A stretch of DNA of 43,795 nt, from positions 1 through 43,795 of the forward strand of contig JAHCRH010000005.1 of NCBI GenBank assembly GCA_020148025.1. The letters are read 5' to 3'. Below the pieces are notes generated by a model, which made no database searches, was not told the DNA's origin, and saw only the letters and a list, made by a program, of their open reading frames with translations. Positions 15,331 to 31,893 of the stretch are shown in pieces (the stretch's first letter is position 1; every line of letters begins with the position of its first letter). This stretch comes from Patescibacteria group bacterium. Lineage in GTDB: Bacteria; Patescibacteriota; Minisyncoccia; Minisyncoccales; JAHCRE01. Both the position numbers and the translations under genes were made by a program.

Positions 15331-15425
15331 TTTACAGTTCTTTCCAAATTGAGTTATAATTAGCTTGAAGATTGTTTTTTAGTTTTAAAGTGTTATTATA
15401 AAAGATGGTCCGGTTCCCTTTTAAA

Positions 15426-16520
15426 ATGGGCTTTAAGAGTTACTTAGGGATAGATGTTGGAACTTCCGGAATAAAAATTGTTCAATTATCACTTCGAAGA
15501 GAAAGAATAAAATTAGAAAAATATGGTGAAGCAACTGTTCGAATTTTTTATAAGGAACCCTTCCGAACTTTTGAGAAAAGTACTCTTTTGCTATCTGATC
15601 GAGATATCGCCCGGGCAATTTTAGCTATTTGTAAAGAGGCAAAAATTTCTGAGAGGAAAGCTATTTTTTCAATCCCCGATTTTACAAGTTTTTTTACCAG
15701 TTTTAATTTACCACCAATGAGCAGAGAAGAAATTTCTCAAGCAGTCAGATTTGAAGCTCGTCATCACATTCCCTTACCTTTAGCTGAAGTGAGTTTAGAC
15801 TGGTCAATAATTGAAGGAGAATTAAGTGCTCGAAAAAAAGTTCCTCTAAAAATCTTGTTGGTGGCTGTGCCCAACAACGTTATTAATCAATATCGCCAAA
15901 TAGTTGTTTTGTCAAATCTTGAACTTAAGGCTTTAGAAGCTGAAGTATTCGGGCTGGTAAGATCTTTAATCGGAGATGATAAAAGGCTAATTGTTTTGCT
16001 AGATATCGGAGCTCAAAGCACAACCTGCAATATCGTTGATCAGGGAATTTTAAAACTTAGTCATAGTTTTGATGTAGCTGGAAATGAATTAACTCAAGTT
16101 TTAGCTAAGGCATTAAATATTGATTATTCAGAAGCAGAAAATTTAAAAAAAACTCATGGCCTAAAATCTTTAATTTCAGGCCCATCTACCGTTAAGAAGA
16201 ATCAAGAGATTCCCTTAATTACCAAGAAGGTTGGAGAGATTTTAAGGCCTTTAATTGATCTAATTTTAACTGAAACAAAAAGAACTTCTCAAAATTTTTA
16301 TCAGGCTAAGGGAAAAAAAGTTCAAAGGATAATTATTTCCGGCGGTTCGGCCTTGCTCCCCGGTCTTAAAGAATATTTTTCCCAGGCCCTTAAAAAAGAA
16401 GTAGAGATTGCCAATCCTTTTTCCAATATTTTATACCCTCCAATTCTCGAAGGGACTTTAAAAAAAATGGGACCCTCTTATGCCATAGCCGTAGGCATGG
16501 CCCTAAGAGGACTCGAGTAG
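15426..16520 (+). CDS. pilM: Type IV pilus assembly protein PilM
   Basis: YLGIDVGTSGIKIVQLS, LDIGAQSTTCNIVDQGIL, IISGGSALLPGLKEYF; upstream ATG at 15405 also possible. Confidence 0.9.
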   Translation: MGFKSYLGIDVGTSGIKIVQLSLRRERIKLEKYGEATVRIFYKEPFRTFEKSTLLLSDRDIARAILAICKEAKISERKAIFSIPDFTSFFTSFNLPPMSREEISQAVRFEARHHIPLPLAEVSLDWSIIEGELSARKKVPLKILLVAVPNNVINQYRQIVVLSNLELKALEAEVFGLVRSLIGDDKRLIVLLDIGAQSTTCNIVDQGILKLSHSFDVAGNELTQVLAKALNIDYSEAENLKKTHGLKSLISGPSTVKKNQEIPLITKKVGEILRPLIDLILTETKRTSQNFYQAKGKKVQRIIISGGSALLPGLKEYFSQALKKEVEIANPFSNILYPPILEGTLKKMGPSYAIAVGMALRGLE

Positions 16521-16586
16521 ATAATAGATAATAGATGATGGGAATCCAAAGTCTAAAATCCAATATCTAAAATCCAGTATCTAAAT
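16518..16586 (+). repeat. Heptanucleotide dyad array filling the pilM-pilN spacer
   Basis: tagataa tagataa tagatga tgggaat ccaaagt ctaaaat ccaatat ctaaaat ccagtat ctaaat-ATG. Confidence 0.8.
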
Positions 16587-17117
16587 ATGGCAATAGAAAT
16601 TATTCCAAAAAAAGAAGTTAAACCTTCTCCGTGGCAAAATACCTTGCTTGGCTTTTTAATTTTTTTATTTTTGATTTCCATTTTAGGTTACTTTGGCTTA
16701 GATTATTTTGTTAAAAAAGCTGATAGGCAACTTCAGGAGCTGAATGAGGAAATAACCAAAGCAAGATCTCCTCAACGAATTGCCCTGGAAAAAGAAGTTT
16801 TAGATTATCAAGAGAAGATCGAAGATTTCTCTTTTTTACTTGCTAACCACCAAAAGAGTTCAAATTTTTTTGATTTTCTTGAAGAAATTACCCACCCTGA
16901 GGTTTTCTTTTCTGAGCTAAATTTGGATACTAAAGAAAATCGAGTTAGACTTTATGGTCAGGCTGAGAGTTTTCAAATCTTGGGTCAACAACTACTAATT
17001 TTTCGAAAAGCCGAATTTATTGACACTTCGAGATTATCAGAAATTAGAATTGGAGAAGAAGGAAAAATCGAGTTCACTTTTGATTTTTCTCTCAATCCAA
17101 AATTGTTTACCCGGTAG
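16587..17117 (+). CDS. pilN: PilN-like fimbrial assembly protein
   Basis: Bitopic protein after pilM, IPKKEVKPSPWQNTLLGFLIFLFLISILGY. Confidence 0.7.
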   Translation: MAIEIIPKKEVKPSPWQNTLLGFLIFLFLISILGYFGLDYFVKKADRQLQELNEEITKARSPQRIALEKEVLDYQEKIEDFSFLLANHQKSSNFFDFLEEITHPEVFFSELNLDTKENRVRLYGQAESFQILGQQLLIFRKAEFIDTSRLSEIRIGEEGKIEFTFDFSLNPKLFTR

Positions 17118-17747: not shown

Positions 17748-18017
17748 ATGGTTCTTACTTTTATCGAACCCAAAAAAAGGCAGAAATATCTAATTTTTAT
17801 CTTAATTGTGGTGATTTTTGGAATTGTTTTTCTAATCTGGAATTATTTTTTAGCAAAACCCCAGCCTCCTTCTTTTAAACATCTGCCACCACCTGAGATA
17901 AAAATAAATTTTGAAATATTAAAAAGTCCAATTCTGGATGAACTCCAGTTATTTGAAGAAATCTCTCCTTTTGAAGAAGAAATCGGTCGAGAAAATCCCT
18001 TTATACCCTATGAATAG
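17748..18017 (+). CDS. Small bitopic protein in the PilP position
   Basis: One TM, Pro-rich tail, between pilO and pilB. Confidence 0.45.
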   Translation: MVLTFIEPKKRQKYLIFILIVVIFGIVFLIWNYFLAKPQPPSFKHLPPPEIKINFEILKSPILDELQLFEEISPFEEEIGRENPFIPYE

Positions 18018-18097
18018 ATATTAGATGCTGGATATTAGATAGTAGATAATATTAAAAAGAGTCCAAAATCTAACACCTAATATCTAAAATCTAAGTT
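18015..18097 (+). repeat. Heptanucleotide dyad array filling the spacer before pilB
   Basis: tagatat tagatgc tggatat tagatag tagataa ... taacacc taatatc taaaatc taagtt-ATG. Confidence 0.8.
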
Positions 18098-21381: not shown

Positions 21382-22593
21382 ATGAGATTTAATTATCAGG
21401 CCAGAACTAAAACTGGTTCACCTCAGGCCGGAACAGTTGAGGCTTCTTCCAGAGAGGCAGCTGTAGCTCTTTTGGAAAAATATGGGCTTTATGTCACTTC
21501 TTTAGAAAGAACAACAGCAGTACCAGTTTTTTTTAGAAAAATAAAGCTTTTCCAGAGAATTTCCTCAGGCGAGATAGTCGGTTTTTCTAGACAACTAGCC
21601 ATTATGTTTAGATCGAGAATTCCAATCGTAGAGATTTTTTATACCCTGGCTAAACAGACCAAAAATCCACTTTTTAAAGAAAAAATTGTTCAAATTGCTG
21701 AAGATGTAGAGGGAGGAGTTTCTCTTTCTTCCACCTTGACTAAGCATCCCAAAATTTTTAGTCAATTTTACGTCAGTATGGTTAAATCTGGCGAGGTTTC
21801 TGGAGAACTTGCAGAAGTTTTAGATTATTTAGCTGACCATTTGGAAAGAGAAAAAGATTTCCATTCAAAAATGACTGGAGCAATGATTTATCCTGCCATG
21901 GTTTTAATAGTTGTCTTAGTCGTGATTTTAGCCATGACTCTTTTCGTTATTCCCCAATTAGGAGAAATGATAAGGGAAATGGAAATGGAAATTCCTCTTA
22001 TGACTGAACTTGTTTTGGGTTTTTCTGATCTTTTGAAAAAATGGGGAATATTTTTTCTTATCGGTGTTGTTATTTTGATATTTCCCTTTTTCCGATTTTT
22101 AAAAACTAAAGAGGGAAAGAAAGCTTTTGCTAAGTTTTCCTTGAAAATTCCTATACTGGGTGGCTTTTTGAAAAAAGTTTACCTTACTCGTTTTGCTGAG
22201 AATTTATCAACCTTAATTTCCGGAGGCTTGCCAATTGCCCGGGCTTTAGAAATCACCGCTGATATAGTTGGAAATGATGTTTACAGAACCATCATTTTGA
22301 GAACTCGAGATGGAGTAAGAAGAGGAGAGACGATATCTTCTATTTTAGAGGGGTATCCTGAAGTTATCCCTCCTTTGTTTACCCAAATGACCTTAGTTGG
22401 AGAAAAGGCTGGTCGAGTAAGTCCGGCCCTAATGAGTATTGTTGGTTTTTACAAAAAAGATGTTGACCGAACTCTTGATAATTTCGTCAGTTTTCTTGAA
22501 CCCCTTTTAATTATTTTCTTGGGAGTAGTAGTTGCCGGATTAATGATTAGTGTTTTAATGCCGATCTATCAAGTTGCTTTGGGGGGATTCTGA
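21382..22593 (+). CDS. pilC: Type IV pilus inner membrane platform protein PilC/GspF
   Basis: FNYQARTKTGSPQAGTVEA, FSRQLAIMFRSRIPIVEIF, GVRRGETISSIL...LPIYQVALGGF; aaggag 12-13 nt before ATG 21382. Confidence 0.9.
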   Translation: MRFNYQARTKTGSPQAGTVEASSREAAVALLEKYGLYVTSLERTTAVPVFFRKIKLFQRISSGEIVGFSRQLAIMFRSRIPIVEIFYTLAKQTKNPLFKEKIVQIAEDVEGGVSLSSTLTKHPKIFSQFYVSMVKSGEVSGELAEVLDYLADHLEREKDFHSKMTGAMIYPAMVLIVVLVVILAMTLFVIPQLGEMIREMEMEIPLMTELVLGFSDLLKKWGIFFLIGVVILIFPFFRFLKTKEGKKAFAKFSLKIPILGGFLKKVYLTRFAENLSTLISGGLPIARALEITADIVGNDVYRTIILRTRDGVRRGETISSILEGYPEVIPPLFTQMTLVGEKAGRVSPALMSIVGFYKKDVDRTLDNFVSFLEPLLIIFLGVVVAGLMISVLMPIYQVALGGF

Positions 22594-22627
22594 TATTAGA
22601 TATTAGATATTAGATTGTTCAAAAAGA

Positions 22628-25240: not shown

Positions 25241-25330
25241 AATCATTTAGACATATTAACTTAACATCTAAACATATAAACACTAAATTTAAATTTTGTT
25301 AAAATGCTTAAATACTTAAATGTCAAAACG

Positions 25331-29243: not shown

Positions 29244-31893
<2,650 letters not shown>

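Follow-up and report, generated by a model that had tools for sequence, protein, structure and literature searches.

Why does a pilus operon carry 66 nucleotides of repeated heptads between the stop codon of pilM and the start codon of the next gene, and does this array belong to that junction? CPR genomes are small and their operons tightly packed, yet some lineages gain inserts of 60-100 bp where genes of an operon meet, as in the pilus operon and at rpoB-rpoC. The window, meaning the whole stretch of 43,795 nucleotides analysed here, is contig 21 of a 615-kb, 25-contig Patescibacteria MAG (the host genome, G000). Its nearest named relative is Patescibacteria CR_Bin_039 (G001, the sister species), with a PilM that is 87% identical. 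The host genome was rebuilt fully from stretches, G001 nearly so (minus about 19 kb) and a third genome, G026, was sampled in part; all genomes compared are MAGs of 79-100% completeness and absences are provisional.

An inverted heptad array fills the pilM-pilN spacer

The array spans window positions 16518-16586 (69 bases) and reads TAGATAA TAGATAA TAGATGA TGGGAAT CCAAAGT CTAAAAT CCAATAT CTAAAAT CCAGTAT CTAAAT-ATG. Its parts and flanking genes are:

15405-16520, plus strand: pilM, 371 aa (Pfam PilM_2, E=1.1e-38)
16518-16520, plus strand: TAG stop of pilM, which is the opening triplet of the array (from the sequence)
16518-16538, plus strand: left arm, three G-type heptads TAGATAA TAGATAA TAGATGA (from the sequence; TRF period 7, 100% matches)
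16539-16545, no strand: centre TGGGAAT, at which the heptads change orientation (from the sequence)
16544-16585, minus strand: right arm, inverted heptads of period 7/14 (TRF period 14, 3.1 copies)
16587-17117, plus strand: open reading frame in the pilN position, 176 aa, its ATG immediately 3' of the array (ORF list)

Read on the minus strand from its outer to its inner end, the right arm is TAGATAC TGGATTT TAGATAT TGGATTT TAGACTT TGGATTC, and on the coding strand it places no G beside the downstream ATG. An earlier note on this DNA had described a dyad of heptads running from the pilM TAG to the ATG of the next gene; the sequence it gave is the one we read, the right half does reverse-complement to TAGAT-type units, and both boundaries are as described. 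The self-match of the array is 0.61 at lag 7 and 0.67 at lag 14, compared with 0.316 +/- 0.06 in dinucleotide shuffles, and 0 of 5000 shuffles reached this periodicity, which rules out chance and leaves the claimed period-7 signal intact. The label pilN fared less evenly, in that it fits the position of the gene and lacks domain support: a Pfam search of the 176-aa frame gave 0 matches, while its neighbours match PilM, PilO and T2SSE/PilB. No Shine-Dalgarno-like motif lies within 25 nt upstream of this frame.

Similar arrays occur throughout the genome

Further heptad arrays in the window include:

18015-18097, plus strand: second TAGAT-family heptad dyad, running from the TAG stop of an 89-aa ORF to a pilB-like ATG, with a paralogous right arm
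22592-22615, plus strand: one-sided array of (GATATTA)n heptads where a pilC-like gene ends
39361-39430, plus strand: rpoB-rpoC heptad dyad with AAAGTTG / CTTAAAT units

The last of these agrees with the remark in the earlier note that rpoB-rpoC has the same architecture built from another unit. Period 7 is the dominant lag in the genome, with smaller excesses at the multiples 14 and 21 and, in G000, at 8. We counted 70 period-7 segments in G000, where a 3rd-order Markov null gave about 7 (mostly runs of N), and 86 versus 3 in G001, and both genomes hold about 30 intergenic heptad arrays. Most long arrays are dyads with G-type heptads on the left and C-type heptads on the right, and they fall into several unit families that differ by locus (TAGATNN, TAGGGTT, GAATNAN, NAGTATN, AAAGTTG). 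Positions 1 and 3-5 of the TAGATNN heptad hardly vary, A or G stands at position 2, and the bases at 6-7 are free. The pilM-pilN array is thus not special to its junction, like architecture being found at 18015-18097, at 39361-39430 and among the intergenic arrays at large.

Other repeats were seen alongside these. Octad arrays (TAACATNN, a core of 6 plus 2 free bases), with the C-type arm on the left, sit between same-strand genes at window positions 3036-3113 and 25241-25303 and at C7:46511-46575 of G000; at the 3036 junction the sister species has GAATTAT heptads. A gene for a class I tRNA synthetase also contains perfect heptad runs (AATTTGA x4.7 at 3466-3498 and CTTGTCG x4.3 at 4611-4640), and 7-nt slippage seems to be active in coding DNA as well. 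Separately, a 436-bp unit is tandemly duplicated at 699-1565, where a 127-aa ORF is present twice, the copies being 85% alike.

The array is absent from the sister species

Between G000 and G001, 392 reciprocal best hits (median 84% identity) defined 323 orthologous spacers. The pilM-pilN spacer measures 66 bp in G000 and 1 bp in G001, where the junction reads CTCGAATAA-A-ATGGCA. Because the sister junction is simply TAA-A-ATG, the pilM-pilN array is a lineage-specific insert, apparently gained after the split of the two species. Spacers at C7:45167, C7:57830, C7:61663 and C6:1546 are likewise array-filled in G000 and 0-3 bp long in G001, and this insertion polymorphism at five orthologous junctions is of the kind expected of MITE or foldback elements. 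No clear target-site duplication was found at the compared junctions, whose short AT-rich targets are ambiguous. The suggestion in the earlier note that the array links pilM to pilN is not supported by these comparisons, given the 1-bp spacer in the sister species. We also rejected a conserved pilMN regulatory element: the sister species has no array, and among the pilM ends of 30 relatives clear heptads occur only in G000, G026 (an AATAACC dyad) and G015 (a short one-sided run), with three different units. In G026 (L175-L191), near-identical AATAACC-heptad elements with two distinguishable ends were seen at several loci, including pilM-pilN (L076).

At other junctions both species carry dyads built from differing units, as at rpoB-rpoC (AAAGTTG in G000, GAATTAT in G001), C7:54902 (TAGGGTT versus AAGTATT) and C20:14240 (TAGGGTT versus TAGATNN, 93 bp each). 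In eight orthologous dyad-holding spacer pairs, of which C21:18018 has an identical unit in both species, the two spacers resemble each other somewhat more than mismatched pairs do (p=0.012), and therefore some arrays at shared junctions may be old, their units having turned over. An array common to both species at C7:57150 has GAATAAT x3 in one and x5 in the other, a two-heptad difference that reads as a signature of 7-nt slippage.

Copy-number change of this kind would also be expected if the arrays arose in place, by 7-nt slippage together with quasi-palindrome template switching that copies one arm, starting from local stop-codon sequence. The dominance of period 7 genome-wide, the greater similarity of adjacent heptads within one arm than of heptads from other loci, and the opening of the array on the stop codon itself all fit such an origin, as does the report that, among long SSRs, heptamers are the most frequent class in many bacteria and are attributed to polymerase slippage (Mrazek 2007, as cited in PMC4679880). 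Nevertheless we regard an in-place origin as unlikely, since the pilM-pilN spacer shows a clean 66-bp gain over a 1-bp spacer and since polarity, heptad order and arm pairing, described below, speak against it.

Polarity, heptad order and arm pairing

The TAGAT dyad is present in 6 of 247 genomes of the order, drawn from six families, and in opposite polarity (the backward control used for this search, the core being letter-palindromic) it is found in 0 of 247. GAAT dyads occur in 33 of the 247 genomes, as against 2 isolated opposite-polarity matches, although this set takes in some shorter GAATTACGAAT palindromes that perhaps represent another element. Polarity is family-specific, because the AATAACC family (G026) and the TGTCAAA and octad TAACATNN families (G000/G001) have the opposite, C-left arrangement, and it is essentially fixed for the TAGAT and GAAT dyads. 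Phage-borne spread was rejected, with the TAGAT dyad found in only 11 stretches among 2.9 million viral contigs. A different pattern was noticed on contig 64 of G038 (L192), where GAATTACGAAT...ATTCGTAATTC inverted pairs stand at 1229, 2037, 2716, 3458 and 4243, at intervals of 680-810 bp, every pair lying in the gap that follows one or two small genes; the series resembles either a gene-cassette array with attC-like sites or the result of repeated short palindromic insertions.

Different loci moreover share the order of their heptads. In 8 of 22 array pairs of G000 and 28 of 62 of G001, the common order beat all 60 within-array heptad permutations, and the order of TAGAT heptads, counted from the outer ends, is kept between CPR families in the right arm (p=0.001) and in the left arm (p=0.02), whereas counting from the inner ends revealed no conservation between families; these tests draw on 12-15 arrays in each genome and on 13 TAGAT loci, some of which are not independent. 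Order shared across loci and CPR families points to dispersed copies and not to independent slippage. This observation is in line with the near-identical AATAACC copies of G026, and copies related by descent, like the inverted terminal arms seen as dyads at dozens of loci, are characteristic of MITE and foldback elements.

If each arm had been copied from its partner, arms of one locus should match best, and the opposite was observed. With cleaned arms of fixed length, same-locus arms pair worse than arms from different loci, re-pairings scoring as low in a fraction of 0.0024 for the TAGAT family and 0.0031 for the GAAT family; of two earlier tests, one was open to arm-length bias and the other mixed in non-family arrays. 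Such anti-matching argues against both a selected RNA or DNA hairpin and self-templated growth of a palindrome, and we infer that perfect palindromes have been purged. It also distinguishes between models for the origin and persistence of inverted repeats.

Many arrays sit flush between stop and start codons

Among arrays of at least 45 bp, 19 of 31 (61%) leave 10 bp or less of other spacer, compared with 1% of intergenic bases. While 28 of the 31 lie between same-strand genes, this is not significantly above other spacers (p=0.10), and some arrays stand between genes that diverge or converge. For half of those between same-strand genes, the array touches or overlaps the upstream stop, and stops in all three frames occur within 35 nt in 18 of 30 array spacers versus 102 of 571 others (p=8e-7). 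Genes led by an array have no Shine-Dalgarno-like motif (0/25 versus 125/987 other genes, p=0.06) and a G content of 4% in the 25 nt upstream (14% in others), with starts taken from a simple longest-ORF caller that makes start-side distances approximate. This junction targeting can arise by survival, as inserts elsewhere break genes and stop-bearing arms are tolerated at gene ends; however, because the enrichment is so large, target preference or selection is likely also at work.

Selection for function could alternatively explain the strong preference for tight operon junctions. The array would then be an intercistronic element whose first arm provides an all-frame stop and whose second arm provides a G-free, unstructured leader for translation without a Shine-Dalgarno sequence, to which S1 or a cold-shock-type protein might bind. 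The flush fit, the three-frame stops and the G-poor, motif-free leaders are as it predicts, the asymmetry between left and right arms tracks gene direction in most of 13 TAGAT loci (rank 30 of 4096 labelings), rpoB-rpoC arrays stand in both sister species, and a translational role has been proposed for TAACTGA repeats ending 1 nt before starts (MacGregor, PMC4679880). Yet the sister species and most of 30 relatives manage without an array at the pilM-pilN junction, C-left families such as AATAACC put their G-rich arm beside the start codon, arrays also separate divergent and convergent genes, and the unit is not conserved, such that we consider this explanation rather improbable.

RNA structure and candidate enzymes

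The pilM-pilN array has a predicted RNA fold of -13.6 kcal/mol (z -2.6, a modest value), with z -3.7 for the copy at 18015 and a non-significant z of -0.5 for the rpoB-rpoC copy. Such folds would be compatible with an mRNA hairpin or a transcription attenuator between pilM and pilN, the role raised in the earlier note. However, a G+C-rich stem followed by a U-tract, as in an intrinsic terminator, is not present; no terminator-like site or U-tract was found in 16518-16586 and no forward promoter-like site within the array. Together with the poor pairing of arms within a locus and the empty junction of the sister species, this makes an attenuator very unlikely.

REPINs depend on a RAYT (HUH Y1) transposase. 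Y1_Tnp (PF01797) was not found in the array-rich G001 (91% complete), and on this ground we rejected a REPIN/RAYT element. The only such match in G000 is an HUH Y1 transposase fragment within the window (29253-29490, PF01797, an 85-aa open frame), which adjoins a 15-bp tandem CGTCCTCGAGCAATT. A single RVT_1 domain (E=4.3e-19) lies at C19:11199-11777 of G000 and was not found in the sister species. Neither an HUH Y1 transposase nor a reverse transcriptase appears to be required for the arrays. If a telomerase-like or other reverse transcriptase added heptads at each 3' end of a DNA break, and the ends were then joined head to head as in a telomere fusion, this would account for fixed head-to-head polarity, one core in both arms and TTTAGGG-type units, and genomes with GAAT dyads are weakly associated with RVT_1 (19/33 versus 75/214 others, p=0.02). 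We nonetheless find this route scarcely credible, as RVT_1 was not found in G001 and G026, the two genomes richest in GAAT dyads, and heptad order common to several loci would be unexpected.

Discussion

We believe that the array is probably, though far from certainly, a copy of a non-coding element that is dispersed over the genome and has the form of a miniature foldback (MITE-like) structure with arms of heptads. Dispersal of such an element is favoured by the gain of whole arrays, by their fixed polarity and by the heptad order that loci share, and transposition-like insertion would be its mode of spread. The element would consist of two inverted arms, each of 3-7 tandem heptads with a conserved core of about 5 bases and about 2 free bases, around a short centre. 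It would have inserted between pilM and pilN after the split from the sister species and been tolerated by sitting between a stop and a start codon. There, the G-type arm would supply stops, the pilM TAG itself in this case and generally all three frames as 7 mod 3 = 1, the C-type arm would give the next gene a G-poor leader, and copies may later gain or lose heptads by 7-nt slippage.

Several observations weigh against the foldback element. No transposase partner was found in the searches for Y1_Tnp and RVT_1, the compared junctions gave no clear target-site duplication, and the strong preference for tight operon junctions could also reflect selection for a function. Several heptad families coexist, and at rpoB-rpoC, C7:54902 and C20:14240 the unit differs between the two species, which means that a single mobile sequence is insufficient without replacement or unit turnover.

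More broadly, and with less than even confidence, we propose that CPR bacteria carry an undescribed class of mobile foldback elements, namely inverted heptad arrays that insert specifically at operon stop/start junctions (pil, rpoB-rpoC and others), bring their own all-frame stops, have fixed polarity and arms kept from perfect complementarity, and are replaceable by elements with other heptads. A literature search found no description of CPR heptad dyads, although subscription journals were mostly outside its scope and it is weak evidence of novelty. Should the arrays be mobile, one can ask, and test, what carries them and how they choose their targets; should they be under selection, they offer a way of placing stops and leaders between genes that needs no Shine-Dalgarno sequence.

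Comparison with known systems

Cyanobacterial STRR heptamers and the P6b heptad hairpins of tRNA-Leu(UAA) introns are degenerate heptads flanking a loop. One class of the tRNA-Leu intron is TDNGATT, which TTAGATT/TTGGATT would fit. Those heptads are one-sided or lie inside structured RNA, in contrast to the CPR arms, which show no hairpin-like co-variation. Foldback (FB-type) transposons, among them Tetris and Galileo, resemble the arrays in having inverted arms of short tandem repeats, in being apparently non-autonomous and in changing copy number within arms, but they are eukaryotic, with far longer units and elements, and the CPR arrays have no demonstrated transposase or target-site duplication (PMC4079207). 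The MITE BrickBuilt of Porphyromonas gingivalis is similarly an intergenic miniature element with tandem repeats and several copies per genome; its 23-nt repeats are direct, its inverted ends are short and it lies 49-591 nt from genes, whereas the CPR arrays are flush (PMC4596501). REPINs share short inverted repeat pairs, intergenic location and fixed polarity (PMC3116915), and differ by the lack of a Y1_Tnp match in G001 and of heptad periodicity in REPs.

The combination seen in the CPR arrays was not found described in the literature searched, and the nearest known sequences include the TAACTGA heptamer repeats, which are intergenic in Beggiatoaceae, Cyanobacteria and Bacteroidetes (MacGregor 2015, PMC4679880). 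TAACTGA repeats use a single fixed unit in direct orientation, with one inverted set among 170, while long CPR arrays are mostly inverted dyads with a core plus variable bases and many units per genome, and their units differ from TAACTGA. Their placement is nonetheless alike: as in the CPR arrays, which lie near starts and over upstream stops without a Shine-Dalgarno motif, TAACTGA repeats are 7-nt intergenic units directly before starts (the commonest end being 1 nt upstream), overlap upstream stops, carry three-frame stops, usually lack a Shine-Dalgarno sequence, differ by 7-nt indels between strains and are patchily distributed (PMC4679880).
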